Assembly: GCA_947166705.1 (NCBI GenBank)
Contig: CAMVFE010000001.1
Span: 1-64,000, forward strand
Length of the DNA: 64,000 nucleotides
Direction: 5' to 3'
Source of the DNA: an uncultured Clostridia bacterium
Lineage (GTDB): Bacteria > Bacillota > Clostridia > Christensenellales > Aristaeellaceae
In this document: positions 48,765 to 64,000 of the stretch, piece by piece
Numbering within the stretch: the stretch's first letter is position 1
Layout: every line of letters begins with the position of its first letter
Translations under genes and position numbers: made by a program
The notes under the pieces: model-generated
Databases searched by the model: none
Told to the model about the DNA's origin: nothing
What the model saw: the letters and a program-made list of their open reading frames with translations, nothing else

Positions 48765-50201
48765 TCAGAAATTGAAATAGATAAACGGATTGTGTGCGCC
48801 CATCAGGATGGCGCCCACGCCGCACAGGAACAGGGCCAGCTGGATCACCCATGCCCCGGCTTCCGCGGCGGCGGCCCTTCCGCCTTCCCCGCTTCCCGCC
48901 AGCTTTTCCTTCAGCCGGGCGAAAAGGGGCGTGGAGCAGAGGATTCCCGCAATGATCACCCGGTGGTAATCCCGGAGCCAGTAAACCAGCGTGCCGTTTG
49001 CGAAAGGCTGCGCGTTCAGGCCGAACATCGTCCGCAGGTAAGCGCCCGCCCGGGGAAGGTCCGGCGCACGGAACAGCACCCAGCCCAGCAGCACCGCCAG
49101 CAGGGTGAACGCCCGGTACAGGAACTTCGCCGTCCCGTGCCCCGGCGCCTCCAGCTTTTCCGGGAGGCCGGAAAGCTTCTCCGCCGTGATCAGGACGCCG
49201 TACATCACGCCCCAGAGAAGGAAGGTCCATTCCGCGCCGTGCCAGATGCCCGTCAGCAGCCAGACCGTGAAAAGGTTCCGCGCCAGCAGGGCCCGGGACT
49301 TCACCCGCGACCCGCCCAGCGGGATATAGACGTAGTCCCGGAACCACCGGCCCAGGGAAATATGCCACCTTCGCCAGAATTCCGTCACGGTCCGGGAGAT
49401 ATAGGGATAGTCGAAGTTCTTTTCAAACCGGAAGCCCAGCATCTTTCCCAGGCCGATCGCCATTTCCGAATAGCCGCCGAAGTCAAAAAAGATCTGCAGC
49501 GTATAGCACAGCGCGCCCAGCCACGCCCCGCCGACGGTCAGTCCGGAGGCGCCGAAGGCCTTGTCCGCCACCTCCCCCAGCACGTTGGCCAGCAGGATTT
49601 TCTTGTTGAACCCGTGGAGGAAGTCCATCACGCCCTCCGAGAAGGACGTCAGCGTGATCTCCCGGTGCTCAAACTGCTCCGCGATGGTGCCGTAGCGTAC
49701 GATCGGCCCGGCGATCAGCTGGGGGAAAAGGGAAATGTAGAGGCCCAGCCACGCCGGGTTTTTCTGGGCCTCCGCGCCCCGGTAGACGTCGATCACGTAG
49801 CTCAGCGCCTGGAACGTGAAGAAGGAAATGCCGATGGGCAGGGCGATGGAGGTTTCCGGAACCAGGGGCACCAGCCCGGGGAACCAGCCGCGGACGGTCC
49901 GGGTCACGAAGTTCAGGTACTTGAACACGAACAGTACGGACAGGTTGCAGGCGATATCGACGGCCAGCAGGAGCTTCTTCCGGCCCGTGCGCTCCCCGCA
50001 GCGTGCGATCAGCAGGGCCATGACGTAATTCACCGCGATGGATCCGATCATCACGAAGACGAAGGAAGGCTCCCCCCAGGCATAGAACAGCAGGCTGCAG
50101 GCCAGCAGCCAGTAATTCCGTGCCTTTCCGCGCAGCAGCAGGTTGACGGCCGTCACCGCCGGCAGAAAGATAAAGATGAATTCCATGCTTGAAAAAAGCA
50201 T
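48765..50201 (-). CDS. MBOAT-family O-acyltransferase (AlgI/DltB/PatA-like)
   Basis: The 478-residue protein begins MLFSSMEFIFIFLP and has about 11 helices. Typical AlgI stretches are ALPIGISFFTFQALSYVID, SLFPQLIAGPIVRY, FWRRWHISLGRWFRDYVYIP and LTGIWHGAEWTF with the catalytic His. It would pass an acetyl group across the membrane to the AlgJ-like partner encoded just upstream (50227-51795). Length and start are normal for the family, with GGAGGGG upstream. Confidence 0.93.
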   Translation of the reverse strand: MLFSSMEFIFIFLPAVTAVNLLLRGKARNYWLLACSLLFYAWGEPSFVFVMIGSIAVNYVMALLIARCGERTGRKKLLLAVDIACNLSVLFVFKYLNFVTRTVRGWFPGLVPLVPETSIALPIGISFFTFQALSYVIDVYRGAEAQKNPAWLGLYISLFPQLIAGPIVRYGTIAEQFEHREITLTSFSEGVMDFLHGFNKKILLANVLGEVADKAFGASGLTVGGAWLGALCYTLQIFFDFGGYSEMAIGLGKMLGFRFEKNFDYPYISRTVTEFWRRWHISLGRWFRDYVYIPLGGSRVKSRALLARNLFTVWLLTGIWHGAEWTFLLWGVMYGVLITAEKLSGLPEKLEAPGHGTAKFLYRAFTLLAVLLGWVLFRAPDLPRAGAYLRTMFGLNAQPFANGTLVYWLRDYHRVIIAGILCSTPLFARLKEKLAGSGEGGRAAAAEAGAWVIQLALFLCGVGAILMGAHNPFIYFNF

Positions 50202-50226
50202 TCCTCTTTCCCCTCCTGTCCGGCCT

Positions 50227-51795
50227 TTACGGCTTCCTCAGCTCACATTCCTGAAGCCGGATTCCCCGGTATTCCAGCTCCATTCCCTCCGTCCCGCCCC
50301 GGACGCCGGCATAGAAGCGGAGCTCGTAATCCCCCTCGCCTTCCCCGTTCTCCGGGATCCGGAAGCCCCACTGAAATCCGTACCGGTTTCCGTATCCGAT
50401 GTCGAAAACCGTCTGGTCCGCCTCGGTATCCCCCCGGTACAGCACGATGTTGGCGCCGTCCGGCGTCCCGCGCTTCACGTCAACGCCCTCCAGTGTCAGG
50501 ATATAGCTCCTTCCCCCCTCCAGCCGCGCGGGCAGCGCCGCGTAATCCGCCTCCGCGTCGTCCCCGGACACGCTGAACCCGTCCCAGCAGGTTTCCGCCG
50601 TGATCTCCGGTTCTCCCCCCGGCTTCGGGAAGTAATATGGATAGTAGGCGCTCGGAAGCACCTCGGGATAAATCATCATGATCACCATGTCCGTCGGGTT
50701 CAGGGCCACGTAATCCCCCGCGGCCAGGGGAAACGTCCGCGGATCGATCACGTCCAGCGAGGTGAATTCCGTGCTCAGGAAGCATTCCAGCGGCAGCATG
50801 AAGCTGTCCCGGATGATCGTCAGCCTCCGGTGGTTCTCGGCGTTCAGGTTGCGGTGCAGCGTCTGGGCGTACGGGCCGCCCACGTACCGGGAATAGCTGT
50901 CCATCTCAAACAGGTCGGACCTCTCCATCAGCCATTCCCGCATATTGGCCTCCCGGAAATCCCCGTGGCAGGTCCATACGCCGATCGAGTACCGGGACAT
51001 CTCCGTCTCAAAGGCCGGCAGGATATAATCCAGGTCATCCGTTCCCCCGAACAGCGGCCCCACCCGGCGCCCGTCGCTGCCCAGCCACCAGTCGGGCTTC
51101 ACCGTCTTCTCCCACAGCGCCGCATCCGTACAGGTCGTCCGGGTTTCCGGAAACCGCCCGCGGATGGCCTCCATGAGGAGCTGAAACGCCCGGAAGGCGC
51201 CGTCCGCGTTCCAGTGGTGGTCCGTGCGGTAAAAATACTTCTCAATCTGCTCCCGGTTCCGGCTGATCTCCTTCCGCAGGTCCAGCGTCGGCACGCCGAG
51301 TTCCGCCAGCTCCGCCATCGCCTGGTTCGCGATGTCGTTCGCCCGGTCCTCCGCGCCCGCGGGCAGGAGGTTTTCCTCCGTCGGCAGCTTGAACGGCGCC
51401 ATCACGAACAGGAAGGGGATCCCCCGGTCCTCCAGCCAGCGGGAAAACCGGCTGAGGTTCTCCGAGAAATCGGATGTTTTCATCATGGACGCGGTCGTGC
51501 TGGTCAGCATGCCGTTCGTCATCACCTGAACCTCGTTGTACAGGGTGCGCCCCTGCAGCCGGGCATACCCTCCGTTCAGGGTAATCAGGCCGGACTTTTC
51601 CCGGAAGCGGTCGCTCAGGTAATTGTCCCGGACGGTCCGGGTCATGTCCTGAAATCCGCTGCCGCCCCGCAGGAATTCCGCCGCGGGCTCCAGCACCAGC
51701 GTCCGGTTCCGGAAGGCCGTGACGCAGACCGCCAGACAGAAAACCGCGCATCCCGCGATCTGCGCCAGCTTCTTCCCCGTCATCCTGAACCGCAT
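50227..51795 (-). CDS. AlgJ/AlgX-like SGNH-type O-acetyltransferase partner
   Basis: The 522-residue protein has one N-terminal membrane anchor and an extracytoplasmic domain. The YRTDHHWNADGAF motif is the hallmark of AlgJ/AlgX/DHHW proteins, and TIIRDSFMLP should hold the catalytic serine. A C-terminal beta-rich part of about 130 residues may bind carbohydrate. With the MBOAT protein it forms an O-acetylation system for a surface polysaccharide. The start is the second Met (51795) because GGAGG lies eight bases before it. Confidence 0.88.
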   Translation of the reverse strand: MRFRMTGKKLAQIAGCAVFCLAVCVTAFRNRTLVLEPAAEFLRGGSGFQDMTRTVRDNYLSDRFREKSGLITLNGGYARLQGRTLYNEVQVMTNGMLTSTTASMMKTSDFSENLSRFSRWLEDRGIPFLFVMAPFKLPTEENLLPAGAEDRANDIANQAMAELAELGVPTLDLRKEISRNREQIEKYFYRTDHHWNADGAFRAFQLLMEAIRGRFPETRTTCTDAALWEKTVKPDWWLGSDGRRVGPLFGGTDDLDYILPAFETEMSRYSIGVWTCHGDFREANMREWLMERSDLFEMDSYSRYVGGPYAQTLHRNLNAENHRRLTIIRDSFMLPLECFLSTEFTSLDVIDPRTFPLAAGDYVALNPTDMVIMMIYPEVLPSAYYPYYFPKPGGEPEITAETCWDGFSVSGDDAEADYAALPARLEGGRSYILTLEGVDVKRGTPDGANIVLYRGDTEADQTVFDIGYGNRYGFQWGFRIPENGEGEGDYELRFYAGVRGGTEGMELEYRGIRLQECELRKP

Positions 51796-51819
51796 CTGCA
51801 TTTCCTCCGCCGCCTCGCG

Positions 51820-53367
51820 TTAAAACTTGACCACCAGGACGCCCCGGACCATCCGGACGGAGCCGTCCGCCGGATAGGAGGGCATCTCCTTCACCTCCGG
51901 CCACTTTTCCGGGTTGTCCCTCCAGTACCAGTTCCCCTGGAACCCGCACCATTTCTGCATGAAGAATTCCTTGTAGTAGTGGATGTATTCCGTCGTGCTG
52001 TGGCCGTACAGGTTGAGGCGGATAAAGCTCATTTCCTCCAGGTCGTAGATCGTCGGATCCAGGTCGGTGTAATCGTCGACAAAGGCGATCTCCGTTTCCG
52101 GCGTGTATCCCTCCTGGGACTTGATCCGCGTGATCAGCGTCGTGTAATAGCTCACGGCCGCCTGCTGCTGCAGGGTGTCCTTCAGGTAGCACTGGTTGTC
52201 GAACCGCGCGTACATCAGGCACGCCGTGCCCAGCACCAGCGAGGCCGCCAGCGAAAGGACCCGCCTTCCCCGGAATTCCCCCTGCTCCAGCCGGTCCAGC
52301 AGGGCGGCCAGCAGGACGGCCGCCACGGCCTGCCCGTAAACCATCAGCCCGTGGACCTCCTCGGTCATCACGTAGATGAAATTGCACCCCAGCGGAAGCA
52401 GGGCGTACAGGACGCAAAGGAGCAGCGCGTTCAGGCGGCTTTCGCGCAGAGTCCGGAGGATGTGCCGGATCCCCAGGACGCCGCCCGCCGCGAGCATCAG
52501 CCGGTAAAGATGGCGCAGCGTCCCCGGATACATGTCCGCGCCGGGATTCCTGCCGGGCAGGAAAAACAGGAGATACGCCGTCTTCACCCTTCTCAGGAAG
52601 GTGTGCGGCGTCATCATGCCCATCCGGTCAATCCCCTGGTAGGAGCTCAGCTGGACCTGGAACTTCCACAGGAACACCTTGTTCACCGCGAAATAGACCA
52701 GGAAGATGCCCACGGTGCACAGCGCCTGCACGGCGGCGCGCCGCAGGATGCTCCCGGGCTTCTCCCCCGGGGCCGTCTCCAGGATGTCGTACGCCAGGAA
52801 GACCGCCAGCAGCACCGGAATAAAGCCCTGGTACACCCCGATGGAAGCAGCCCCCAGCCCGACGGCCAGCGCCTTCGCCCACCAGGGCGTCTCCCGGCAG
52901 ATCAGATACGCGGCCAGGACCGTCATCAGCAGGCCGGCCATATACGGATGGCTGGTGAACATGTAGGAGAAGAGCACCGCCATCACGGGAAAGGCGATCA
53001 TCAGGCCGCCCGCCAGCGCGGCGTACACCCGGCTCCGGATCTTCAGCAGGCTGACCAGCAGCGCGCAGGACAGCGCGACGCACAGGATGGAAACCAGCCC
53101 GTTGAACAGCGGCAGGCTGGCGTTCCCCGTTCCGAAGAAGATGCCTTCCAGCCAGCACAGGACGTGCAGCATCCACCTTCCGGAGGTCACCGTCGCGCCG
53201 AAGCCGAACAGGTTGGCGATGTCGTCCTGGTGGGACAGCTTGTTGGTGAGCCCCGTCCCGTGGCAGAACAGCCCGAACAGGACTGCGCCGAAAAAGGCGG
53301 CCCGGACCTGCGGGGTGATCCATTCCTTCCACCGGATCCGGTTTCCCGGAAACAGCCTTTGCGTCAC
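51820..53367 (-). CDS. GtrII-like glucosyltransferase-domain membrane protein, copy 3
   Basis: The 515-residue protein is a paralog of 24266, 30370 and 54475. It has NKLSHQDDIANLF (the acidic pair), GRWMLHVLC, the DNQCYLKDTLQQQ region and the ending MPSYPADGSVR...LVVKF. About 11 membrane segments are visible. The start is GTG at 53367, overlapping the acyltransferase stop by four bases, so the two are translationally coupled. Confidence 0.85.
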   Translation of the reverse strand: MTQRLFPGNRIRWKEWITPQVRAAFFGAVLFGLFCHGTGLTNKLSHQDDIANLFGFGATVTSGRWMLHVLCWLEGIFFGTGNASLPLFNGLVSILCVALSCALLVSLLKIRSRVYAALAGGLMIAFPVMAVLFSYMFTSHPYMAGLLMTVLAAYLICRETPWWAKALAVGLGAASIGVYQGFIPVLLAVFLAYDILETAPGEKPGSILRRAAVQALCTVGIFLVYFAVNKVFLWKFQVQLSSYQGIDRMGMMTPHTFLRRVKTAYLLFFLPGRNPGADMYPGTLRHLYRLMLAAGGVLGIRHILRTLRESRLNALLLCVLYALLPLGCNFIYVMTEEVHGLMVYGQAVAAVLLAALLDRLEQGEFRGRRVLSLAASLVLGTACLMYARFDNQCYLKDTLQQQAAVSYYTTLITRIKSQEGYTPETEIAFVDDYTDLDPTIYDLEEMSFIRLNLYGHSTTEYIHYYKEFFMQKWCGFQGNWYWRDNPEKWPEVKEMPSYPADGSVRMVRGVLVVKF

Positions 53368-54458
53368 TTCGCCGCCCCCTCCCGGTCCGCCGGCTTTTCG
53401 CCCAGGGCGTCGTACGCGCGGAGCAGCTGGCCGACCGTGAATTTCAGCAGCACCGCCAGCACCAGCGTGGCGGTGAAGGCGGTCAGGGCGTACACCAGCC
53501 CCGTTCCCTCCGGGGAGAAGATCACGCCGTCCCCGTGATTGTAGACCGTCTCAAAAATCAGGTAGATCTCCATGGAATACCCGCCGACCACCGTCACCGC
53601 CTTGGTCAGGAAGCCCCTCTTCCCAAGCAGGGAGAACACGCACGCGTGGGCCAGCGCGAGGCAGGGAATCAGCGCCGCGTATTCATAGAACCGGAAGTCC
53701 ATGTCCAGCGGGATATCCGCGATCAGGATCACAAGCAGCACGCTGAGCGGAACCGCGAGCAGCGGGACGGCCGCCGGCACCTTCCGGTGCTCCATGCAGA
53801 GCCTGCCCATCCAGGCGCCCAGCACAAACACGGGCATCCTGCACAGCATCAGGGCGATATGCGTGAAAAAATATTCCTCCGCGAGAAACCGGAGCGCCAG
53901 CCCGGCCGCCAGGAAGCCCAGCGCCATCCCCAGGGCGCCGGCCGTTCCCCGCCCGGCCCGGACGCCCCGGTGGATCAGCGGGAAAACCATGTACAGGACG
54001 AGGATGGCGGACAGGAACCAGAAATTGCCCCGGGTCAGCCCCGGCACAAAAAAGCCGTACAGGAAGACGCCCCCCGCCCAGTTGGCCAGGTCCGTCTTCT
54101 CCGCCATGCCGAAGGTCAGGATCGTGACGATCAGGATCGTCGGCACAACCCGCCTGTACCGGCGCCGGTAAAAGCTCCTCACAGGCCTGGGATCGCTCTC
54201 CCGCAGCCGGGTGTAGGAAAAATAGAGGCCCAGCCCCGAAAGGAAGAAGAACAGGTCGACGCCGCAGTTGCCGATCGCCTCGATCCGGGTGATCATGCCC
54301 AGCAGGCGGGTCCGGGTCAGAAAGGCGGACCGGAACAGATTCAGGTATTTGCAGTGATAAAAGGTGATCCAGAGCGTGGCGATGCCCATCAGGTACGGCC
54401 TCGCTTCGGAAACCGCGTACAGGTCAAAGGGTTTCAGCAGCTTTTCCTTCCATCGCAT
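53364..54458 (-). CDS. Acyltransferase family 3 (OafA/YrhL-like)
   Basis: The 364-residue protein has about 10 helices. It follows the acyltransferase 3 pattern: YLMGIATLWITFYHC near the N-terminus (the family usually has RGLAxxxVxxxH), then GNCGVDLFFFLSGLGLYFSY, FYRRRYRRVVP and FWFLSAILVLYMVFPL. It probably adds an acetyl or other acyl group to a surface sugar outside the membrane. It sits between two GtrII-like genes. Confidence 0.88.
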   Translation of the reverse strand: MRWKEKLLKPFDLYAVSEARPYLMGIATLWITFYHCKYLNLFRSAFLTRTRLLGMITRIEAIGNCGVDLFFFLSGLGLYFSYTRLRESDPRPVRSFYRRRYRRVVPTILIVTILTFGMAEKTDLANWAGGVFLYGFFVPGLTRGNFWFLSAILVLYMVFPLIHRGVRAGRGTAGALGMALGFLAAGLALRFLAEEYFFTHIALMLCRMPVFVLGAWMGRLCMEHRKVPAAVPLLAVPLSVLLVILIADIPLDMDFRFYEYAALIPCLALAHACVFSLLGKRGFLTKAVTVVGGYSMEIYLIFETVYNHGDGVIFSPEGTGLVYALTAFTATLVLAVLLKFTVGQLLRAYDALGEKPADREGAAK

Positions 54459-54474
54459 CCGGGCACCCCCTTCC

Positions 54475-56037
54475 TCAGAATTTCACCACCACGGCGTCGT
54501 TGATGATCCGGACGGAGCCGTCCGCCGGATAGGACGGCATCTCCAGCACCTCCGGCATGGTTTCCACCTTCGGATCCCACCCCCAGGGCATGTCGTACCC
54601 GCACCACACCTTGATGAAGGTGTTCCGGGTCGGGCAGTGCAGGTATTCCATCGTGTCATGCCAGTAGGGAACGATCCGGATGAAGTCCAGCTCGTCGATA
54701 TTGTACACGCTCGGATCGCCCTCCGGATCCTCCGCGTTGGCGAAAAAGACCGTCATGTCCGGCCGGTATCCCGGAAGGGACTTGATCTGCGTGACCAGCG
54801 TGGTGTAGAAGCTGATCGCCTCCTGCTGGTGCAGCGCGTCCTTCAGGTAGCACTGGTTGTCGTAGCGGGCGTACATGACCGCCATTACCGCCATCACCAG
54901 AGCGCCGCCGCGTGAAACCGCCTTCTTCAGCTTTCCCGGGGAAAGCTCCAGCCGGTCGAGCAGCCAGGCCAGCAGCACGAACTGCATCACCTGGCCGTAC
55001 ACCATCAGGGAATGCACCCCGTCGTCCACCATGACGTAGATCAGGCTGCACCCCATCGGGACGAGGGCCAGCAGGACGGTCAGTAGCGCCGCCTTCCCCC
55101 TGCTCTTTTTCCAGGTCAGGAAAAGGAGCCGGACGGCCAGGATGCCCCCGATCGCCAGCGTCAGCAGGTACAGGATCCGCAGCGTTCCGGGATACATGTA
55201 CGCGAACGTCCCCGGCGTGGGGCTGAAGAACTCCCGGTAAGCCCGGCCGACGCGCCCCAGCAGCTCCGGGGCGGTCATCCGCCCCATCTGGTCGATGCCC
55301 TGGTACGCAGACAGCTCCACCTGGTACTTGGCCAGGAAAAACCGGTTCCCCGCCGCGTAAACCGCCATTACCCCGACGGTGCAGAGCAGGTGGACCGCCA
55401 TGCGCCGGACCGCGGCGCCGACGGGCTCGTCCCGCTCGGTCAGCTCCATGATGTTGTCCAGCAGGAGAATCGACGCGAAAACGGAAAGATAGGCCTGGTA
55501 GATTCCCACGCCCGCGCCGCCGATGCCCACTCCCAGCAGCTTCGCCCACCAGGGCGTTTTTCCGCAGATCAGGCAGGCGCTGAGGGTCATCATCAGCAGG
55601 CCGGTCATATAGGCGTGGCTGGTGAACATGTACGCGAACAGCGAGGTGATCACCGGAAAGGCGGTCATCAGGCATCCCAGCAGGGCGCAGTGCACCGTAT
55701 TCCGGATCCTCAGCAGGCTGACCAGCAATCCGCCCACGGCGCCCAGGAGCAGCAGGGAAATCAGCCCGTTGAACAGCGGCAGGCTGGTGTTCCCGGTGCC
55801 GTAGAAGACGCCCTCCAGCCACGCGAAAATCTGCAGCGTCCACCGGCCGGAGGACACGGTGGTGCCCATGTCGAAAAGGATCGCCACGTCGTCGTGATGG
55901 GAAAACTTGTTGAACAGCCCCATTCCCTGGGAAAACAGCCCGAAAAGCAGGGCGCCCAGGAACACTGCCCGGACCTGGGGACTGATTTTCCGCATAATGT
56001 CCGTGATCAGATCCGGCTTTTCCTGCCGTTCCATCAA
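54475..56037 (-). CDS. GtrII-like glucosyltransferase-domain membrane protein, copy 4
   Basis: The 520-residue protein is a paralog of 24266, 30370 and 51820. It has NKFSHHDDVAILF, GRWTLQIFA, the DNQCYLKDALHQQ region and the ending MPSYPADGSVR...VVVKF. It is closest by eye to copy 3. The start is TTG at 56037 with GGGGGAG seven bases upstream, or ATG at 56034. It is 16 bases from the acyltransferase gene. Confidence 0.85.
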   Translation of the reverse strand: MMERQEKPDLITDIMRKISPQVRAVFLGALLFGLFSQGMGLFNKFSHHDDVAILFDMGTTVSSGRWTLQIFAWLEGVFYGTGNTSLPLFNGLISLLLLGAVGGLLVSLLRIRNTVHCALLGCLMTAFPVITSLFAYMFTSHAYMTGLLMMTLSACLICGKTPWWAKLLGVGIGGAGVGIYQAYLSVFASILLLDNIMELTERDEPVGAAVRRMAVHLLCTVGVMAVYAAGNRFFLAKYQVELSAYQGIDQMGRMTAPELLGRVGRAYREFFSPTPGTFAYMYPGTLRILYLLTLAIGGILAVRLLFLTWKKSRGKAALLTVLLALVPMGCSLIYVMVDDGVHSLMVYGQVMQFVLLAWLLDRLELSPGKLKKAVSRGGALVMAVMAVMYARYDNQCYLKDALHQQEAISFYTTLVTQIKSLPGYRPDMTVFFANAEDPEGDPSVYNIDELDFIRIVPYWHDTMEYLHCPTRNTFIKVWCGYDMPWGWDPKVETMPEVLEMPSYPADGSVRIINDAVVVKF

Positions 56038-56067
56038 TCCATCTCTCCCCCGTTCATCCGCGCGCCG

Positions 56068-57702
56068 TCAGAACAGCTTCGGATTGTGATCGCTCCCGTA
56101 GACGGCCACCTGGTCCAGCTCCTCCAGCAGGGTATACTCCGCCAGAATCCGCTCCGGAACCAGGTCCTTTCCCCGGGGGCAGACCAGCAGCGTCGGCCCG
56201 CTGTACTCCTCCTGGTTGTCGTACACCGTGTAGTCCCCCCAGTGGGTGAACCACGCGCCGTTGTCGGGCAGCTCCTTGTAGATCCGGTTCAGGTCGCAGG
56301 CGCGCAGCACGCGGCGGACCACCGCCAGGTCGTCGCCCCAGAAGTATACGACGCCCGCCTCCTGCTTTTCCGCCAGCGCCTGGATTTCCTCCGTCTGCCA
56401 TTCGTCGTTGGTGGTGCGCAGATAATTGTAATCCGAATACATGTCCACCGCCAGAACGGACCCGGTCATCGCCAGGGACAGCATCACGGCCAGAACCCGC
56501 CGGCTGTCCAGGCTGCTGAAAAACAGCGCGGTCAGGATCACCGTCATCAGGAACGCGGTGATCAGGTAGCGTTCCTCAAAAATGCTTCCGCCGTAGGCCA
56601 CGTTGTACAGCCCGAAGAACAGGAGGTTGACGCCGATCACGGTGACCAGGAACAGGCTGATCCCGCTCATGTCCTCCCGGTCCTTCGCGACGCGCCGGAA
56701 CGCCCGGACCACGGCGGCCACGAGGATCGCGAAGATAAACAGGATAAAGACCCGGGAAAGCCCCGCGGCCGTCATCAGCGGCTTGTCGTCCTCCCCCAGA
56801 GGAAGAACCTGCAGCAGCTTCATGAATCCCTGGACCACGGCCCCGAAATTCCGCCACAGGTTGGTCAGCGAGGTCCACTGCCGGGTGCTGTCCAGCGCCC
56901 TGAAGTGGACCGCGAACAGGGCCAGCGCCTTCCCCGCCGCCACAAACCCGCAGCAGGCGTAAGCGAAGAGGCTCTCCTTCCGGACCAGCTGCCGCCAGTC
57001 GTTGCGGATCGCGGCCATCTCCAGCTCGTAAACCAGGTACGGCGCCAGCAGCACGACGATCAGGTACACCCCGCTGGAAAAGCCGCACATCAGGCAAATG
57101 GGCCAGATGACCCAGGGCAGGGCGCCCATCCTTCCCTCCTGCCGGATCCGGATGAACTCGTACACGATCAGCAGGGTCACCAGGATCCGCACGGTGTAGT
57201 AGGACGCGCCGGAAAGCACGTTGCTGAAATAGCCCAGGTCGTTGAAGATGGAAAACTCCGTCGTCAGGTAGGGACAGATCACCAGGTTCAGCGCGATCAT
57301 CCGCGCGCTGAACCGCACCTCCAGCCTGCCGAGAATTTTCCAGATCACCAGCAGGATCAGGACCAGCATCACCGTGTTGGCGATCCCGAAGGAGAGCAGG
57401 ATGTTCCCCGTCAGCCCGTACAGCAGGGAAGCCAGCGGCCAGTGGGTATCCAGGTGCAGGTTCGTGGTTTCGCTCCAGGCCGGGCTGACCACCGTCTTCT
57501 CCTGCCAGATCATCGCCGCCCGGAGGAAATTCCAGGACGCGTCGTATCCCATATGGTTCCGCAGCTGGGTAAAGTTGAACCAGCACAGCACCGCGAACTG
57601 GCACACAAAGACCGCCGTCAGCGCCAGTCCCAGCGTCCCCAGCCGCGTGTCCCGCCTGCCCGCCGCCCGCGGGCTCCCGCCTTTCCGGGATAAAATCGTC
57701 AT
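56068..57702 (-). CDS. Polytopic GT-C-like membrane protein, paralog of 26868-28532
   Basis: The 544-residue protein has about 12 helices and an acidic loop RNHMGYDASWNFLR. It matches the 554-residue protein at 26868 from end to end. Its C-terminal soluble part includes VVYFWGDDLAVVRRVLRACD and ends SDHNPKLF. The function is inferred as transfer of a lipid-linked sugar. GGAGG lies 11 bases before the ATG. Confidence 0.72.
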   Translation of the reverse strand: MTILSRKGGSPRAAGRRDTRLGTLGLALTAVFVCQFAVLCWFNFTQLRNHMGYDASWNFLRAAMIWQEKTVVSPAWSETTNLHLDTHWPLASLLYGLTGNILLSFGIANTVMLVLILLVIWKILGRLEVRFSARMIALNLVICPYLTTEFSIFNDLGYFSNVLSGASYYTVRILVTLLIVYEFIRIRQEGRMGALPWVIWPICLMCGFSSGVYLIVVLLAPYLVYELEMAAIRNDWRQLVRKESLFAYACCGFVAAGKALALFAVHFRALDSTRQWTSLTNLWRNFGAVVQGFMKLLQVLPLGEDDKPLMTAAGLSRVFILFIFAILVAAVVRAFRRVAKDREDMSGISLFLVTVIGVNLLFFGLYNVAYGGSIFEERYLITAFLMTVILTALFFSSLDSRRVLAVMLSLAMTGSVLAVDMYSDYNYLRTTNDEWQTEEIQALAEKQEAGVVYFWGDDLAVVRRVLRACDLNRIYKELPDNGAWFTHWGDYTVYDNQEEYSGPTLLVCPRGKDLVPERILAEYTLLEELDQVAVYGSDHNPKLF

Positions 57703-57736
57703 GGATTCCCGAACCTCCCTCCGGAAGAAACGCCCG

Positions 57737-57758
57737 GCCCCCGCGGACCGCGGGGCCG
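57737..57758. other. GC-rich hairpin inside the long operon
   Basis: GGCCCC-CGCGG pairs with CCGCGGGGCC with a one-base bulge in the 73-base gap after the Gfo/Idh/MocA gene. No T-run follows. It may mark partial termination or an RNA processing site between the sugar-nucleotide genes and the transferase genes. Confidence 0.35.
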
Positions 57759-57775
57759 GATCCTCCGCTTTGTCG

Positions 57776-58807
57776 TCAGGGCCGCGCCTCCCGGCCGGAA
57801 AGCTCCCGGACCCGCTCCGTCAGCCTTCCCTGCAGCAGGATCCGCTCCCGCTCGGCCTCCCGGGCGTCCCCGTCCGCGGCGCACCGGCCGAACCGCTGCA
57901 AAACCCGCAGGAACTGGTCGTCCGCGGCGGTCTTTTCCACGGTGCCCTCCGCCGTCTTCAGGCGGACGGGCGCCGGATATCCGTCCGGCGCGGTGAAGAT
58001 CCGGGGCGCCGTGATCGTTCCCCGGCTTCCCCACACCTCCAGCTCGCACCGGTAGTCATGGTCCATGCCGTAGGCCAGCTCGGCGCAGACGCCGTCCTTC
58101 CGGCCCATCAGCACGCTGCCCCAGAGGTCCACCTCGTGCCCCTCCGCGGTACCGGACACCGCGGCCAGCACCTCCGCCTCCGGGCCCAGGATCTCTGTCG
58201 CCGCGCGGATCGTGTAGCCGCCGCAGTCCAGCAGGGCGCCGCCCCCCAGCGCGCGGCAGTACCGGAAATCCCCGCTGTCCCGGTGCGGGAAACCGAAGGC
58301 CGCACGCACCAGCCGCAGGCTGCCGACGACGCCGTCCGCGATCCACTGCCGGATCAGCGCCATCTGGGCGTGATCGGGAAAGCCGTAGTTCTCCGTCAGC
58401 GCCAGGCCCTTTTCCCGGGAAAGCCGGACCAGCTCCTCCGTGTCCGCCCCCCGGGTTGTCAGCGGCTTTTCCAGCAGCACGTGCTTTCCCCGCCGCAGGG
58501 CCTCCGAGGCCCAGCGGAAATGAAGCGCCGGGGGCAGCGCGATATAGACCGCGTCCACCTCCGGGTCCGCCAGCAGCTCCGCGTATCCCGTATACGTCCG
58601 GCCGCCGAAGGCGCGCTGAAAACGCTCCGCCTTCTCCAGCTTGTGCGCCAGGAGCGCCTCAAATTCCGCGTCCGTGCCCCCGAAGCCCATTTCCTCCCGG
58701 GTGGAGAAGGCCGCGCCCGCGTACAGGAAGGAGGCCTCCTTCCGGATTGCCGGAATCATCCGCCGCTCCGCGATGCCGGAGGTCCCCAGCACGCCGATTC
58801 TGATCAT
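57776..58807 (-). CDS. Gfo/Idh/MocA-family oxidoreductase, candidate NDP-sugar 3-ketoreductase
   Basis: The 343-residue protein has an N-terminal NAD(P) fold (IRIGVLGTSGIAERRMIPA) and the family motif LLEKPL with catalytic Lys114. The C-terminal half includes the ENYGFPDH stretch. Gfo/Idh/MocA proteins include the sugar 3-ketoreductases (OleW, KijD10) that act right after NDP-hexose 2,3-dehydratases in 2-deoxysugar pathways. That activity is my inference from the neighbouring dehydratase gene. It starts three bases after the cupin stop. Confidence 0.88.
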   Translation of the reverse strand: MIRIGVLGTSGIAERRMIPAIRKEASFLYAGAAFSTREEMGFGGTDAEFEALLAHKLEKAERFQRAFGGRTYTGYAELLADPEVDAVYIALPPALHFRWASEALRRGKHVLLEKPLTTRGADTEELVRLSREKGLALTENYGFPDHAQMALIRQWIADGVVGSLRLVRAAFGFPHRDSGDFRYCRALGGGALLDCGGYTIRAATEILGPEAEVLAAVSGTAEGHEVDLWGSVLMGRKDGVCAELAYGMDHDYRCELEVWGSRGTITAPRIFTAPDGYPAPVRLKTAEGTVEKTAADDQFLRVLQRFGRCAADGDAREAERERILLQGRLTERVRELSGREARP

Positions 58808-58810
58808 CGC

Positions 58811-59224
58811 TTATTCCTCTCCCGCCTCCAGCGTCCGCCGGTAGGTCTCGTAGTCGTCGATGGTTTCCTGTCCGGGGGTGAAGGGACGGTCGCAGACCGC
58901 CATCATGACGCAGTCCGGCGTGAAATTCCGCATGCTCCGCCAGACCATCGGCTCGATCATCAGCCCCCGGGCGGGATCGTCCATGTGCCAGGTTTCCCGT
59001 TCCTTCCCGTTGTCCGTCACCACGTCGCAGCTGCCGGAAACGGGAAAAAGGATCAGCCGGGTCTCCCGCGTCGCGTGGTCCCCGCGGCTGGCCCCCGCCC
59101 TCACCCGGGACACGAAGAAGATCCGCTCGATCGGAAAGGGCACCTCCCGCCCGTGCTCCATCACGAACAGGGTCCCGTCCGCCTCGGTGTTCTGCTTGAT
59201 CCGGATCAGTTCACACCCCCGCAT
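58811..59224 (-). CDS. FdtA/QdtA-type cupin (WxcM-like), sugar 3,4-ketoisomerase candidate
   Basis: The 137-residue protein is a single cupin domain. IERIFFVSRVRAGASRGDHATRET is split by the metal or active-site His in RGDHA, and LFPVSGSCDVV follows. FdtA and QdtA convert dTDP-4-keto-6-deoxyglucose to 3-keto isomers before amination at C3. Here such an activity would compete with the 2,3-dehydratase, so it may instead act as an epimerase-like or a divergent isomerase. The ATG lies inside the end of the aminotransferase gene (14-base overlap), with AGGAGGT eight bases upstream. Confidence 0.82.
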   Translation of the reverse strand: MRGCELIRIKQNTEADGTLFVMEHGREVPFPIERIFFVSRVRAGASRGDHATRETRLILFPVSGSCDVVTDNGKERETWHMDDPARGLMIEPMVWRSMRNFTPDCVMMAVCDRPFTPGQETIDDYETYRRTLEAGEE

Positions 59225-60314
59225 AGCTGTTGACCTCCTGAATCACCTTCGTGATCTCCTCTTCGCTCATCCAGTCCATCATCGGCAGCGACACCACCGT
59301 GTCGCAGATGCCCTCCGTCACCGGGAAGTCCCCCCGCCGGTACCCGAACTTCTCGGTCATGCAGGGCTGCAGGTACGGCGGCGTCTTCCACGCGATATCC
59401 GTGCCCACACCCCGCTCCTTCAGGAATTCCCGGAATCCCGCCTGGTCCCCGACCCGCACCACGAACTGGTACCAGGTATGCACGCATCCCTCCGGCACCC
59501 GGGGCAGCTCCACCAGGGGGTTCCGGATCTCCGCCAGGTACCGCTGCGCGATATGGTCCCGGTTCCGGAGCAGCTCCGGCATGTGCCGCAGCTTCACCCG
59601 CAGCAGGCCCGCCTGCAGCTCGTCCAGCCGGTCGTTATAGCCGATCACGATATTGTGGTACCGGTAATCGCTTCCGTAGTTCCGGATCACCTTCACCCGC
59701 TCGATGATCTCCGGGTTTCGGGAGATCACGCCGCCGCCGTCCCCGAACCCGCCCAGGTTCTTGGTCGGATAGAAGCTGAAGAAGGCCGCGTCGCCGAAAA
59801 GGCCGGTGTTCAACCCGTTCCACGGCGCGAAGTGGGACTGCGCGCAGTCCTCAAAAAGCATCAGCCCCCGCTTCCGGCAGATCTCCAGGATCGGGTCCAT
59901 CCGGGTGGCCAGCCCGTACAGGTGGGTCACCAGCACGGCCCGCGTCCGCTCCGTCACGGCCGCCTCAATGCGGTCCGCGTCCAGCTGGTAATATTCGTCC
60001 GGCTCCACGAACACCGGAACCGCCCCGCACTGCATGATGCCTAGCATCGTGGCGATATACCCGTTCGCCTGCACGATGATCTCGTCCCCCGGCTGAATCC
60101 CGGCGGCCATCAGGCCGACCAGGATCGCGTCCAGGCCGTTGTCCACCCCCGCGCAGAAGCAGTCCCCGCCCAGGGCGGCGGCGAACTCCGCCTCGAAGCC
60201 TTTCACCTCGTTTCCCAGGACGTACCAGCCGCTGCGCAGCACCTCCACGGCCTTGTCCTCGTATTCCTTCTGGTACAGCCGGAATCCCCGGCTCAGGTCA
60301 TTGATCGGGATCAT
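59211..60314 (-). CDS. DegT/DnrJ/EryC1/StrS-family sugar aminotransferase
   Basis: The 367-residue PLP enzyme has FFSFYPTKNLGGFGDGG with the Schiff-base lysine at 185, the FEDCAQSH motif near 155, and VDNGLDAI at the active-site entrance. It transfers an amino group, usually from glutamate, to a keto-sugar nucleotide at C3 or C4. The start ATG overlaps the dehydratase stop (ATGA), with GGAG eight bases upstream. Longer in-frame readings run into the dehydratase gene and are rejected. Confidence 0.94.
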   Translation of the reverse strand: MIPINDLSRGFRLYQKEYEDKAVEVLRSGWYVLGNEVKGFEAEFAAALGGDCFCAGVDNGLDAILVGLMAAGIQPGDEIIVQANGYIATMLGIMQCGAVPVFVEPDEYYQLDADRIEAAVTERTRAVLVTHLYGLATRMDPILEICRKRGLMLFEDCAQSHFAPWNGLNTGLFGDAAFFSFYPTKNLGGFGDGGGVISRNPEIIERVKVIRNYGSDYRYHNIVIGYNDRLDELQAGLLRVKLRHMPELLRNRDHIAQRYLAEIRNPLVELPRVPEGCVHTWYQFVVRVGDQAGFREFLKERGVGTDIAWKTPPYLQPCMTEKFGYRRGDFPVTEGICDTVVSLPMMDWMSEEEITKVIQEVNSYAGV

Positions 60315-61723
60315 ATGTCTTTCTCCTCCGTCATTCTGCTGGAATGGATGGAAAACAGCATCAGCAGGTTCCGCAGCTGGATGTTCAGGCAGTTGTTGAT
60401 CTGCGTCATGGCGTTCAGGCTGCCCAGCGTGACCCAGACGTATTTCTCCGGGTCGTGGGGAACGTCCTCCGCCCTCACGATCACGTTCCGGTTCTGCTCG
60501 TGGTAGAACCTTCCGCCCTCCTCGGACAGCACCACATCCACCAGCACGTTTTCCCGGCGCTCCAGCGCCCGGAAAAAGGCGCCGCCCACGCTGTCCCGCC
60601 GCCCGGCGGTGCCGTATTCCTCCTGCACGGAGGGTCCCAGCTCCGCCGCGTCGAAGCATCCGGGCTCGGGCTTGATGCTGACCAGCACCTCCCACCGGCC
60701 CCCGCGCTCCCGGCAGATCAGGCCGAAGACCGCCTCGCCCCGCGCCGCAAAGAGGGGCTGGTTCCACCGGTTCACCTCCCGGCCCTCGATGTTCAGCCCG
60801 CAGAAAACCACCTCGAAGGGATAGTCCTCCCGGTGCCGGAACCGGTTCCCGTCCATCACCCAGTCCCGCAGCGAAAGCAGCGGCACCCGCCGGACGGCCG
60901 GCGCCCGGAACATCTTGTAGTTGTTCATCCGCAGGTAGATTTCCGTCATGTCCTCATGCCGGATGGCGCGCATGGACCGGGCGAACTCCGGCACGTAGCC
61001 GGACACGCTGTCCATCATGAACACGTAGGGGATGCAGCTCAGCACGGTCCGGGTATCCATGTTCACCAGGTTGTCCCGCTTCATGCATTCCCGGATCTGG
61101 GACAGGGTCATCCACCGGTGGGAGGGCAGCTCCGGGATCTCCTCCTCCGTCCGGATGATCACGTTCCGGTTCCGTTTCCCCAGGAACCGGGAGGACTGCT
61201 CCGACTGGATCTGGTCCACCAGGATATCCTCCCGCCGCATCTTCAGGAAAAGCTCCAGGTACGGCGGCTCCTTGCCCCCGTGCCGGCGGGTGAAATTGCT
61301 CTTCGTCGCCTGGATGGTCGGGGAAATCTGGACATAGTTGATGTTCCCCGGCTCCGTCTTGGCCTGCATCAGGAAATGCCACACCCCGCGGATCTTCCGG
61401 CAAACGATCCCCAGGTAGCCGATCTCCGGCTGCAGGATCATCGGCTGGGCCAGCACGGTCCCATCCGGGTCCTCGGTCTCCACGCCGCCGATGCGGAAAA
61501 AGCTCCCCTGGGTGTTCCGGATGGTTCCCTCGTCCCCGTCGTAGTACCACGGCGCGCATTCCTCCAGGGAGATCATCCGGATCTCCACCTGCTGGTTCCG
61601 CTTCCGCTCCTCCAGCCATCCGTCAATCTCCGCGTCGGAATGCAGCGGCTCCCCGGACCGGGAGATCTCCGCGATCTCCTCAAAGCCCGTGATCCATCTT
61701 CCGATTCCCGTCTGTTCCGTCAT
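60311..61723 (-). CDS. NDP-hexose 2,3-dehydratase (EvaA/OleV/TylX3 family)
   Basis: The 470-residue protein is made of two similar halves. SRFLGKRNRNVIIR (about 187) in the first matches GRFYHEQNRNVIVRA (about 415) in the second, each with a preceding KTEPG or KPEPG segment. This tandem layout is that of NDP-hexose 2,3-dehydratases, which remove the C2 hydroxyl of dTDP-4-keto-6-deoxyglucose. Full length is normal. Such genes are best known from actinobacterial antibiotic clusters, so presence here is notable. GAGGAG inside the end of the GtrB-like gene precedes the ATG. Confidence 0.93.
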   Translation of the reverse strand: MTEQTGIGRWITGFEEIAEISRSGEPLHSDAEIDGWLEERKRNQQVEIRMISLEECAPWYYDGDEGTIRNTQGSFFRIGGVETEDPDGTVLAQPMILQPEIGYLGIVCRKIRGVWHFLMQAKTEPGNINYVQISPTIQATKSNFTRRHGGKEPPYLELFLKMRREDILVDQIQSEQSSRFLGKRNRNVIIRTEEEIPELPSHRWMTLSQIRECMKRDNLVNMDTRTVLSCIPYVFMMDSVSGYVPEFARSMRAIRHEDMTEIYLRMNNYKMFRAPAVRRVPLLSLRDWVMDGNRFRHREDYPFEVVFCGLNIEGREVNRWNQPLFAARGEAVFGLICRERGGRWEVLVSIKPEPGCFDAAELGPSVQEEYGTAGRRDSVGGAFFRALERRENVLVDVVLSEEGGRFYHEQNRNVIVRAEDVPHDPEKYVWVTLGSLNAMTQINNCLNIQLRNLLMLFSIHSSRMTEEKDI

Positions 61724-61726
61724 CTG

Positions 61727-62758
61727 TCAGGCTCCTCGTTCTCCCGTCCGGCTTCCGCGGCGCGGGCTCTTCTCCGTGTGCGCCTCCGGGCTTTCCTCCC
61801 CGGCCTCCGCGCCTTCCCCGGCGGCCCGGTCCTGCCCGTCGTAAATTCGGTCGATCACGTACAGGGGGCGTTTCCGGGATTCGTCCAGGTTCCGCCACAG
61901 GTATTCCCCCAGCACGCCCATCATCACCATCTGGAAGCTGGTGCTCAGCAGCAGCACCAGCATCACGGAGGCCCAGCCCGCCGGGGTATGGTTGATGATC
62001 TTGTCGAAGATGACGTAGACGCCGAAGACCAGCGCCAGCACCCCGAAGACCAGCCCAACCCCTGTCAGCAGGCGGATGGGCTTGTGGGAAAACACGATGA
62101 AGGTGTCCACGAACAGGTTGATCCGCTTGGAATAGGTCCACATGGAAACGCCCTTTTCCCGGTCCAGCCGGTCGTATTCCAGGATCGTCGGCTTGTATCC
62201 CAGCCAGATCAGCTGCAGGTAGATGCTGGAGTTCTTCTCCTGCATTTCCACCAGCTGGCGGACCACCGACCGGTCGATGACGAAGAAATCAAAGCCCCGC
62301 TCCGGATAGTCGGAAATCACCCACCGGCGGATCAGCCGGTAATAGGAATCCGCGAACCAGTTCTTCATCCGCCCCTTGTCCCGCTCCCGGCGGACGGCCA
62401 GGTTCACCTTGTTCCCCTGCTTCCAGGATTCCATCATCCGGAGGATCATCTCCGGGGGATCCTGCAGGTCCGCGCTGATGACCGCCACGGCCTCCCCCTC
62501 CGCCACGGAAAGGCCCGCGACGATGGCGCGGAACTCCCCGAAGTTCCGGGAAAGCTTGACAACCCGGATCCGCGGATCCCTGTCCCGCAGGCTGAGGGCC
62601 GTCTCCAGCGTCCGGTCCCCGGAGCCGTCGTCCACCAGCACCCATTCCCACTCCGTGTCCCCGGAAGAAGCGTCAAAGACCTTCTCCCGGATCGCCGCGT
62701 AGGTATCCTCCAGGTTTTTCTCGTTATAGTAGCAGGGGGTCACAATCGACAGCTTCAT
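61727..62758 (-). CDS. GtrB/DPM-like polyprenyl-phosphate glycosyltransferase
   Basis: The 343-residue protein has a GT2 domain (MKLSIVTPCYYNEKNLEDTY, LVDDGSGDRT, SADLQDPPE) followed by two membrane helices (about 226-290), the layout of GtrB and DPM1-type enzymes. It moves a sugar from a nucleotide to undecaprenyl phosphate at the inner face. A low-complexity acidic/arginine tail of about 45 residues (from DGQDRAAGEG) is unusual. The product would feed the GtrII-like and other GT-C transferases. GGAGGAG precedes the ATG. No GtrA-type flippase gene is adjacent. Confidence 0.92.
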   Translation of the reverse strand: MKLSIVTPCYYNEKNLEDTYAAIREKVFDASSGDTEWEWVLVDDGSGDRTLETALSLRDRDPRIRVVKLSRNFGEFRAIVAGLSVAEGEAVAVISADLQDPPEMILRMMESWKQGNKVNLAVRRERDKGRMKNWFADSYYRLIRRWVISDYPERGFDFFVIDRSVVRQLVEMQEKNSSIYLQLIWLGYKPTILEYDRLDREKGVSMWTYSKRINLFVDTFIVFSHKPIRLLTGVGLVFGVLALVFGVYVIFDKIINHTPAGWASVMLVLLLSTSFQMVMMGVLGEYLWRNLDESRKRPLYVIDRIYDGQDRAAGEGAEAGEESPEAHTEKSPRRGSRTGERGA

Positions 62759-62802
62759 CCCCGGCTCCTCCCTTTCTTCCGTCTTCCCTCCGCCGGCCCG
62801 GC

Positions 62803-64000
62803 TCAGCCTTCCCCGCCGGCCGCCGCGTATTCCTCCGCCAGCGCCAGGTCCCCCGCCGGCGTGAAGTAGAACTCCATGTCCCCCTTGCCGGCGATGCCCA
62901 GGACGGAGATTTCCAGCTCATATTCCTTTCCGGGCACCAGCTCCGCCGCCAGCGGACAGCGGGAAAAGAAATTGTCCGCGATGTCCTTCCCGGTGATTTC
63001 CGCCTCCGCGGCCGCCGCGCCGCTCCCGGCTTCCGTCAGCCGCACCCGAAGCGTCGGATCGCTCCTGCGGTTGAAGCACGCCGCGCAGAACCGGACGGCG
63101 GTCAGCCTCTCCGCCTCCGCCGTGAACCGCGCCGTCACCGCCTGCCCCGGGAAATACTTGACCGGCCGGTTCTCCGTCACGGCCTTCACGCGGGTGCGGA
63201 CCAGGTCCCCGTACCCCTCCGCCCGCAGGCGGCGCTCCGCCTCCGGCAGGAATTCGTTTGAAACCCAGATCTCCTCCGCCTGGGGCAGCCGGGTGTAGTG
63301 CTCCTCCATAAACGCGTCAAAGTCCGGCGCGTATTCCCGGAACACGTATCCCCAGATCTGCTCGTCCCCGTTGTACAGCACGACGTTGGGCAGGTCCCGG
63401 ATCGAGGCCATCTGCCGTTCCCCCCACATCTCGTAGAAATACGGGTAGCTGATCGCGCCGCAGGCCTCCTTGGGAACCAGCTCCAGGTCCATCACGTCCA
63501 GGCTGTTCACCGGGGCGTTGCAGGAAAAGACCTTTTCCCCGGGCTCGGTCAGCAGGTCCAGGATTTTTTCCTCGCACCGCGGCGTCCTGTCCAGCAGGAT
63601 CTGCGGATACAGCAGGTTGTACCCCGCCCAGACCGCGAAGGGCGCCGTCAGGATCAGCCCCGCCGCCGCGCCCGCGGCCAGGACGGCCCGCCGGACCGGC
63701 TTCCGGAGCTTCGGCAGGCGCTCCGCGCCCATGCCCGCCGCCAGCGCCAGCGCGGCCGTGGCCTGGGCATGGTAGGCCATCCCGTGGAAGCCGTCAAAGT
63801 CCCGCAGCCCGCCGTACACGGCCGCCAGCAGGATCAGCACCCCCGCGGCCGGGGATTTCCGCCCGGTCCGCGCGGCCAGGAAGAACAGCCCCGCCGCGGA
63901 AAGAAGCACCGGCACGGCTTTCCCGGGCGCGGCGGGAAGGCTCCGGATGGTATCCCACAGGTAAACGCCGTACCGCCGGACCGTATCCCAGACGACGGCT
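62803..64000 (-). CDS. Polytopic membrane protein with soluble C-terminus, 5' end cut by window edge
   Basis: The reverse strand is open from the right edge to the stop at 62803 (398 codons visible). The visible part starts with several membrane helices and continues as an extracytoplasmic domain of about 260 residues. It has EKVFSCNAPVNSLDVMDLEL, and a beta-rich end like the carbohydrate-binding tail of some GT-C proteins. An in-frame GTG at 63915 exists, but the frame stays open through VWDTVRRYGVYLWD, so that is probably not the real start. It is the first visible gene of the long minus operon. Confidence 0.7.
   Translation of the reverse strand, partial: AVVWDTVRRYGVYLWDTIRSLPAAPGKAVPVLLSAAGLFFLAARTGRKSPAAGVLILLAAVYGGLRDFDGFHGMAYHAQATAALALAAGMGAERLPKLRKPVRRAVLAAGAAAGLILTAPFAVWAGYNLLYPQILLDRTPRCEEKILDLLTEPGEKVFSCNAPVNSLDVMDLELVPKEACGAISYPYFYEMWGERQMASIRDLPNVVLYNGDEQIWGYVFREYAPDFDAFMEEHYTRLPQAEEIWVSNEFLPEAERRLRAEGYGDLVRTRVKAVTENRPVKYFPGQAVTARFTAEAERLTAVRFCAACFNRRSDPTLRVRLTEAGSGAAAAEAEITGKDIADNFFSRCPLAAELVPGKEYELEISVLGIAGKGDMEFYFTPAGDLALAEEYAAAGGEG

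Follow-up and report, generated by a model that had tools for sequence, protein, structure and literature searches.

The window, by which we mean the whole 64,000-nucleotide stretch analysed here (an uncultured Clostridia bacterium of the family Aristaeellaceae; contig CAMVFE010000001.1, positions 1 to 64,000), carries a cassette of four sugar-nucleotide genes at 57776–61723. The cassette is genuine: all four genes are intact, uninterrupted open frames on the minus strand. Read from high to low coordinates, the first minus-strand gene encodes a family 2 glycosyltransferase (GT2) of the polyprenyl-phosphate kind (61727–62758; PF00535; GtrB/PgfS/ArnC-like), which recurs as a fifth cassette gene. 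It is followed by a putative nucleoside diphosphate (NDP)-hexose 2,3-dehydratase (60311–61723; 470 amino acids, two PF03559 repeats), a DegT/DnrJ aminotransferase of C3 type (59211–60314; 367 amino acids, ATG at 60314; PF01041), an FdtA-family cupin with a predicted 3,4-ketoisomerase fold (58811–59224; 137 amino acids; PF05523) and a Gfo/Idh/MocA oxidoreductase (57776–58807; 343 amino acids; PF01408 and PF22725). A preliminary description of this DNA had reported four adjacent, overlapping genes. They are adjacent, and they overlap at two of their three junctions (dehydratase/aminotransferase by 4 nt, aminotransferase/cupin by 14 nt), but the cupin and reductase genes are separated by 3 nt, as are those of the GT2 and the dehydratase. 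Other genomes also hold these genes as a group, so their adjacency is beyond chance. The cassette appears to be a conserved unit, likely for a type of sugar known chiefly from antibiotics. Comparison of all four proteins supports the earlier prediction of a module for a 2-deoxy amino-sugar nucleotide, and we use the word module below for genes and loci of this type.

The dehydratase and the reductase

The dehydratase matches PF03559 in two stretches with 405.7 bits (cut-off 25), and EvaA is its only solved relative at E 0.001. The glutamates E139 and E190 are essential in EvaA (PMC8987622); they align with E124 and E175 of the window protein and are present in 89/89 dehydratase rows, near-copies included. 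The preliminary description had called the protein EvaA-type and proposed checking it by profile and catalytic residue, and both checks agree with the name. The glutamates of the second repeat, pocket B, are kept just as widely (E353 and E401, 89/89 aligned dehydratases). At the first of these positions EvaA has Asp353 where the window protein and its relatives have glutamate, and pocket B of EvaA is reported to be dispensable (PMC8987622). Unlike EvaA, these dehydratases may have two live sites. The window protein is predicted to be an NDP-hexose 2,3-dehydratase that would act on deoxythymidine diphosphate (dTDP)-4-keto-6-deoxyglucose. EvaA is the closest solved dehydratase and shares its catalytic residues; the hosts of the cassette are Clostridia, Erysipelotrichia, spirochaetes and Melainabacteria.

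The reductase matches PF01408 (86.7 bits) and PF22725. Its closest solved protein is annotated 'sugar 3-ketoreductase' (3rbv, presumably KijD10), which it matches with 202 bits; the next protein of a different kind reaches 91 bits (E values 1.4e-58 and 4.8e-25). K114, D194 and Y198 are kept in 83/83 rows, near-copies included. K114 and Y198 are probably the catalytic pair, as mutant chains among the structure matches suggest. The protein is probably a sugar 3-ketoreductase of the 3rbv type, in line with the 3-ketoreductase of known pathways that the preliminary description had named.

The aminotransferase and the cupin

The aminotransferase matches PF01041 with 311.1 bits, and K185, by its motif presumably the pyridoxal phosphate lysine, is kept in 21/21 aligned sequences. 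Pfam alone cannot tell enzymes that aminate C3 from those that aminate C4; scores with solved enzymes could. The closest is QdtB (311 bits), followed among C3 enzymes by DesV (251), WlaRG (247) and WbpE (191). The named C4 enzymes score at most 152 bits (PerA 152, ArnB 117, WecE 113), although several further matches above 152 bits have no known amination position. The C3 and C4 labels are those of PMC7725333 and, for QdtB, PMC2943079. These scores point to a QdtB-type, C3-aminating enzyme, a refinement of the DegT assignment made earlier.

The cupin matches PF05523 with 113.4 bits (cut-off 23), and FdtA is its closest relative in sequence. Its model has a predicted local distance difference test score (pLDDT) of 96, and it superposes on FdtA and QdtA chains with template modelling (TM) scores of 0.90–0.93. 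In a Foldseek search with this model, rows 1–42 of the 50 shown are 3,4-ketoisomerases, mutants of them or a bifunctional one; sugar epimerases rank after these, with TM scores of 0.71–0.76. The family and fold named in the preliminary description therefore stand. The active site is another matter. FdtA and QdtA have a His-Ala-His motif, whereas the module cupin has His-Ala-Thr. The first histidine (His50, equivalent to FdtA His49) is present in 22/22 aligned module cupins. The position of FdtA His51 is threonine in 21/22, Thr52 in the window protein, and asparagine in 1/22. The module cupins also have an invariant aspartate (Asp16 in the window protein) where FdtA has arginine and QdtA has Tyr17, and the window cupin has Arg96 at the position of FdtA His95. 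In FdtA, His49 is the proposed C–H (C3–H) base and His51 the proposed O3/O4 shuttle, and arginine at the place of His95 is associated with a retained configuration at C4 (PMC2943079).

The absence of His51 sets the protein apart from FdtA and QdtA proper. We place it in a new PF05523 clade that may work like them. We also considered a decayed FdtA, which is unlikely: the module cupins hold together as a single clade whose alignment has 32 invariant columns.

Phylogeny and distribution

The module cupins form one clade (support 100/100), separate from the His-Ala-Asn and His-Ala-His groups. The module aminotransferases likewise form one clade and group, as sister or nested, with those found beside His-Ala-Asn cupins. 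The QdtB-like protein encoded elsewhere on the window's own contig falls outside that grouping (Shimodaira–Hasegawa-like approximate likelihood ratio test 96, quick tree). A well-supported branch splits the module dehydratases, together with that of locus L074, from the other 57. The reductases of module loci sit near those beside dehydratases that lack the module cupin and aminotransferase. The reductase and dehydratase trees are quick ones, with up to 10 near-copies or cut loci left out together with rows under 250 and under 400 amino acids, and the cupin, aminotransferase, reductase and dehydratase trees all carry long-branch warnings.

PF03559 is rare in the relatives of the host: counting its own genome each time, we found it in 4/250 genomes of its family and 9/391 of its class. 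Neither the cupin nor the module aminotransferase occurs in 15 stretches around other PF03559 genes (11 genomes; several stretches are cut by contig ends). In named genomes we took the best 80 of 356 relatives. Twenty-two of these 80 loci have a module aminotransferase, a module cupin or both. In a further locus, L074, the module-clade dehydratase stands by itself. The remaining 57, which we call other-type, have a reductase match in 57/57, some aminotransferase match in 12/57 and a cupin match in 0/57. Across the 23 module loci, window included, the dehydratase is found in 23, the aminotransferase in 22, the cupin in 22 and the reductase in 19. Two of the four loci that lack a reductase are cut by contig ends (L052 and L119), and the other two are from Solobacterium. 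Besides the glycosyltransferase, no sixth gene family, 4-ketoreductase included, recurs in more than 3/23 loci; this holds for the loci themselves, as no search was made for reductases in the rest of these genomes.

Judged by their record names, the hosts comprise Clostridia, two Solobacterium, two spirochaetes and one member of the Gastranaerophilales, so that the cassette spans Bacillota, Spirochaetota and Melainabacteria. Many record titles refer to ruminant or rabbit gut samples. This range across phyla, like the missing cupin histidine and an ordinary FdtA/QdtB pair further upstream, had gone unremarked in the preliminary description. Twenty related aminotransferases are 63–87% identical to that of the window, and those of Gastranaerophilales and Treponema are 76–77% identical to it, which suggests horizontal spread. 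GC content gives no sign of foreign origin for the cassette (61–70% across 48–64 kb).

The link between cupin and dehydratase is tight. A profile built from 22 module cupins gives module cupins 213–247 bits and other FdtA-like proteins at most 127 bits. With it, exactly one module cupin was found in 23/24 genomes that have a module-clade dehydratase; the exception is that of L052, in which the contig breaks off partway through the cassette. None was found in the 49 genomes searched with an other-type dehydratase (49 of the 57 loci, that is, all except L071, L077, L083, L088, L090, L102, L118 and L120). In a scan of 397 genomes of the family of Butyrivibrio sp. XPD2006 (L108), which scored up to 10 candidates per genome, an FdtA-like cupin is present in 80 and a module cupin in 2. 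One of the two is that of XPD2006 itself, which has all five genes; in the other (G1091) dehydratase and aminotransferase genes are adjacent.

These counts bear on whether the four enzymes make one sugar or two. Dehydratase and reductase could produce a 2,6-dideoxyhexose while cupin and aminotransferase independently produce 3-amino-3,6-dideoxyglucose (Qui3N) or 3-amino-3,6-dideoxygalactose (Fuc3N). Consistent with this, dehydratase and reductase occur without the module cupin or aminotransferase in 57/57 other-type loci, and there are FdtA-like cupins, many of them next to an aminotransferase, with no dehydratase nearby. However, the module cupin follows the module-clade dehydratase in all but one genome and is absent from the 49 searched genomes with the other type, and module cupins and aminotransferases form clades of their own. 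Moreover, the window's contig encodes, some 12 kb further upstream, a FdtA/QdtB pair of the ordinary kind (FdtA, with His-Ala-His, at C1:75341–75763; QdtB-like protein at C1:74250–75329), so the module pair is not the organism's sole 3-amino-sugar pair. We consider two separate sugars very unlikely. The ordinary pair and a GtrA-like gene adjoining it lie beyond the right edge of the window (L003, 12247–13763 and 13846–14412; C1:74247–76412).

Some genomes depart from the usual arrangement. The module aminotransferase of the L067 genome is unlinked, 2 kb from a glycosyltransferase gene. In the L074 genome, cupin and reductase genes lie together on another contig, and within L074 3–6771 the module-clade dehydratase gene is beside genes that by eye look DltA/DltB-like and decarboxylase-like. 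A second design, with dehydratase, reductase and a different aminotransferase, is seen in L085, L103, L107, L116, L073, L089, L110 and L039. The L085 aminotransferase is closest to 2po3, which we take to be DesI, and to perosamine synthases, and perhaps aminates C4. In the Lachnospiraceae locus L053 (9956–12389), the dehydratase and reductase frames are each broken by a stop codon. A frame in L004 (2821–4137), from the contig region of the window, resembles by eye a group II intron reverse transcriptase.

A proposed pathway

We propose that the four enzymes act in one linear pathway, in the order dehydratase, 3-ketoreductase, cupin and aminotransferase, to make a dTDP-3-amino-2,3,6-trideoxyhexose, which would be loaded on undecaprenyl phosphate for a surface glycan. 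On balance we consider this probable. The starting compound would be dTDP-4-keto-6-deoxyglucose, supplied by RmlA and RmlB encoded elsewhere in the genome. The dehydratase would remove the 2-hydroxyl to give dTDP-3,4-diketo-2,6-dideoxyhexose, and the 3-ketoreductase would reduce C3 to give dTDP-4-keto-2,6-dideoxyhexose. The cupin would then turn the 4-ketone into a 3-ketone, probably with retention of configuration at C4 because it has arginine at FdtA position 95. Finally, the QdtB-like aminotransferase would aminate C3. If C4 is retained, the product would be the D-arabino sugar (D-acosamine), in effect a 2-deoxy Qui3N, and the GtrB/PgfS-like enzyme would attach it to undecaprenyl phosphate, from which it would pass to the glycan. 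This route uses each of the four enzymes once and needs no further reductase.

The pathway also removes a puzzle. The preliminary description noted that a ketoisomerase of FdtA type and a 2,3-dehydratase normally start from the same substrate. Such rivalry is not required here. The cupin clade is seen with no other dehydratase clade, and the cupin probably acts afterwards, on the 2-deoxy 4-keto sugar. Once dehydration and C3 reduction have taken place, the product would have a 4-ketone and a 3-hydroxyl, as 3,4-ketoisomerases handle, and the resulting 3-ketone would suit amination by a QdtB-like enzyme. The opposite order, with the cupin ahead of the dehydratase, was set aside on chemical grounds, as loss of the 2-hydroxyl needs the 4-ketone.

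The substrate could be supplied in most hosts. The rmlA and rmlB genes, which the preliminary description proposed to look for just past the right edge of the window, are not there, as judged by eye in the lists of open frames of at least 150 and at least 180 amino acids in the next 38 kb. The same genome has rmlB on another contig (G000:C32; 503.6 bits), next to an rmlC-like and an rmlA-like gene. A match to rmlB over the cut-off is present in 22/23 module genomes, the exception being one Solobacterium, but also in 10/14 control genomes, so its prevalence speaks to substrate supply only.

Known systems resemble parts of this pathway. FdtA/FdtB and QdtA/QdtB, which make dTDP-Fuc3N and dTDP-Qui3N, also pair a PF05523 cupin of the same fold with a C3 aminotransferase and also serve surface glycans; they involve no 2-deoxygenation, which the cassette would add. 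D-Angolosamine is N,N-dimethyl D-acosamine and hence has the same skeleton as the proposed product. The D-angolosamine pathways (kidamycin, medermycin, angolamycin) share a 2,3-dehydratase and a 3-aminotransferase with the cassette. They differ in the 4-ketoreductase and N-methyltransferase assigned for kidamycin (PMC9452638) and in decorating antibiotic aglycones in actinomycetes, whereas the cassette lies in a glycan locus in anaerobes.

The angolosamine comparison raises a different route, direct amination. Here the 3,4-diketo product would at once be aminated by the aminotransferase, C3 or C5 of the 3-amino-4-keto sugar would be epimerised by the cupin and the Gfo/Idh/MocA protein would be a 4-ketoreductase, giving a 3-amino-2,3,6-trideoxyhexose of another configuration. 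The epivancosamine pathway proceeds by direct amination too. To our knowledge, known 4-ketoreductases are short-chain dehydrogenases/reductases or aldo-keto reductases, which counts against a 4-ketoreductase of the cassette's kind. The reductase is closest to a 3-ketoreductase and has a relative in every other-type locus, and the closest folds to the cupin are ketoisomerases, with epimerases only after them. In favour of direct amination, the angolosamine of kidamycin has been assigned a 2,3-dehydratase, a 3-aminotransferase, a 4-ketoreductase and an N-methyltransferase (PMC9452638). Moreover, the cupin lacks the shuttle His51 and keeps the C–H base His49, as an epimerase might, and the other three genes are retained in two Solobacterium genomes that have no close reductase. 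An engineered cassette of spnO, ang-ORF14, angB and angMI gave angolosaminyl products, but it does not decide between the routes, as the role of ang-ORF14 is not stated in that account (PMC4644662). We regard direct amination as unlikely.

Several observations weigh against the linear pathway that we prefer. The chief objection to reading the cupin as a ketoisomerase is the threonine at position 51. According to a review, both His49 and His51 are strictly conserved and supported by mutagenesis (PMC2943079), and H51N forms of FdtA and QdtA exist as deposited mutants, as the titles of the Foldseek matches tell. The account of the angolosamine pathway, for a sugar of the same skeleton, names no ketoisomerase (PMC9452638). 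In the quick tree, the reductases of module loci do not separate well from the rest, and two Solobacterium genomes have the dehydratase, aminotransferase and cupin with no close reductase (best E 6e-14). Lastly, no module-type aminotransferase was found in the L074 genome, in a search that covered 10/24 module-clade genomes.

The objection from His51 can be answered in part. Asparagine naturally takes this position in the Campylobacter jejuni protein WlaRA (5tpv), whose deposited name is TDP-fucose 3,4-ketoisomerase. Like the module cupin it lacks the second histidine (His-Ala-Asn); it differs in having asparagine rather than threonine and in being a TDP-fucose enzyme by name. Likewise, 28/31 non-module FdtA-like relatives examined have His-Ala-Asn, and 23 of these 28 have an aminotransferase match within 1.5 kb. 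This count comes from 32 loci (3 from the search of genomes with an other-type dehydratase and 29 from the scan of the XPD2006 family), mostly those ranked highest by likeness to the module cupin, and so over-represents forms other than His-Ala-His. The missing Solobacterium reductase decides neither for the linear pathway nor for direct amination, as both would then be one step short.

His-Ala-Asn FdtA-like cupins are common among the sampled genomes (L152, L153, L155–L182), and in L157 and L167 a PgfS-like glycosyltransferase gene adjoins one, by eye. In Solobacterium L049 the dehydratase, aminotransferase and cupin genes lie, by eye, between nusA/infB/rbfA-like and WXG100/EssC-like genes, with neither reductase nor glycosyltransferase, and gene clusters give the same arrangement in L050.

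Glycosyltransferase, neighbouring genes and destination

A GtrB-like enzyme had been placed ahead of the module, and the GT2 is indeed there. It scores 194 bits with the PgfS model (equivalog cut-off 500) and 127 bits with the model of ArnC-type formamido-arabinose transferases (equivalog cut-off 529). Both scores are below the cut-offs, so the transferred sugar cannot be read from either name. The protein has three hydrophobic segments, towards the C-terminus by eye, and PgfS/ArnC-type undecaprenyl-phosphate sugar transferases are likewise GT2 proteins with hydrophobic segments. In 11/23 module loci the cassette has a glycosyltransferase of this polyprenyl-phosphate type (over 200 bits) no more than 1 kb away.

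Downstream of the cassette the window encodes a 544-residue polytopic membrane protein (56068–57702, minus strand), two GtrII-type proteins, an acyltransferase, an AlgX-like protein and a membrane-bound O-acyltransferase (MBOAT). These neighbours look like surface-glycan genes. One of the GtrII-type glucosyltransferase homologues (54475–56037, minus strand; PF14264) lies outside the conserved cassette, as part of this surface-glycan context. Whether the 544-residue protein belongs to the cassette is unsure. It is also found downstream in L047 and L048, from genomes of the window's own genus, and is a possible outer-face transferase. Its model (mean pLDDT 63) has no fold match at E 0.001 or better; the membrane arabinosyltransferase AftA matches at E 0.2, ranked behind unrelated transporters. 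A paralogue with 56% identity is encoded at 26871–28475 of the window.

The destination of the sugar need not be the cell surface. It could instead decorate a small secreted molecule, as in the antibiotics of actinomycetes: the 2,3-dehydratases named in a review originate in antibiotic clusters (PMC8987622), and L074 has an adenylation-domain-like gene. However, the neighbours are GtrII-type, acyltransferase, MBOAT, AlgX-like and polyprenyl-phosphate-type glycosyltransferase genes, and inspection by eye of the open frames of window 50000–64000 turned up no polyketide or peptide synthetase. A secreted product strikes us as highly improbable, and the most likely use of the sugar would be on the surface, by way of a lipid carrier. 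No N-acyltransferase or N-acetyltransferase family recurs among the genes around the 23 module loci, so the amine may remain free. In Butyrivibrio sp. XPD2006, two EmrE-like proteins of 124 and 120 amino acids are encoded about 7 kb downstream of the cassette (L108, 19020–19728) and resemble a flippase pair by eye.

Significance

Among the open-licence PMC matches listed, no title or start of an abstract concerned this cassette or 2,3-dehydratases of Firmicute glycans, which does not imply absence from print. In the main text of a survey of 55 monosaccharides, 'dideoxy' appears twice, for 3,6-dideoxy sugars, and 'trideoxy' once, for a diacetamido sugar (PMC7725333).

In its widest form our hypothesis is that a cassette spread by horizontal transfer endows gut bacteria in three phyla with a surface sugar, an undecaprenyl-linked 3-amino-2,3,6-trideoxyhexose with a free amine and no 2-hydroxyl, that the His-Ala-Thr cupin clade works on 2-deoxy substrates and that the dehydratase may use two pockets. 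All of this holding at once is rather doubtful, and we offer it tentatively. The cupin would provide a testable case of a ketoisomerase-like site operating without its second histidine. As Butyrivibrio sp. XPD2006 is by its name an isolate, the sugar could be sought there directly. The cassette would add a monosaccharide that genome surveys may overlook, and its presence in rumen and gut bacteria would extend antibiotic-type 2,3-dehydratase chemistry to surface glycans. If the hypothesis is true, the free amine would add positive charge to the wall of these bacteria, comparable to that from 4-amino-arabinose or D-alanyl esters.

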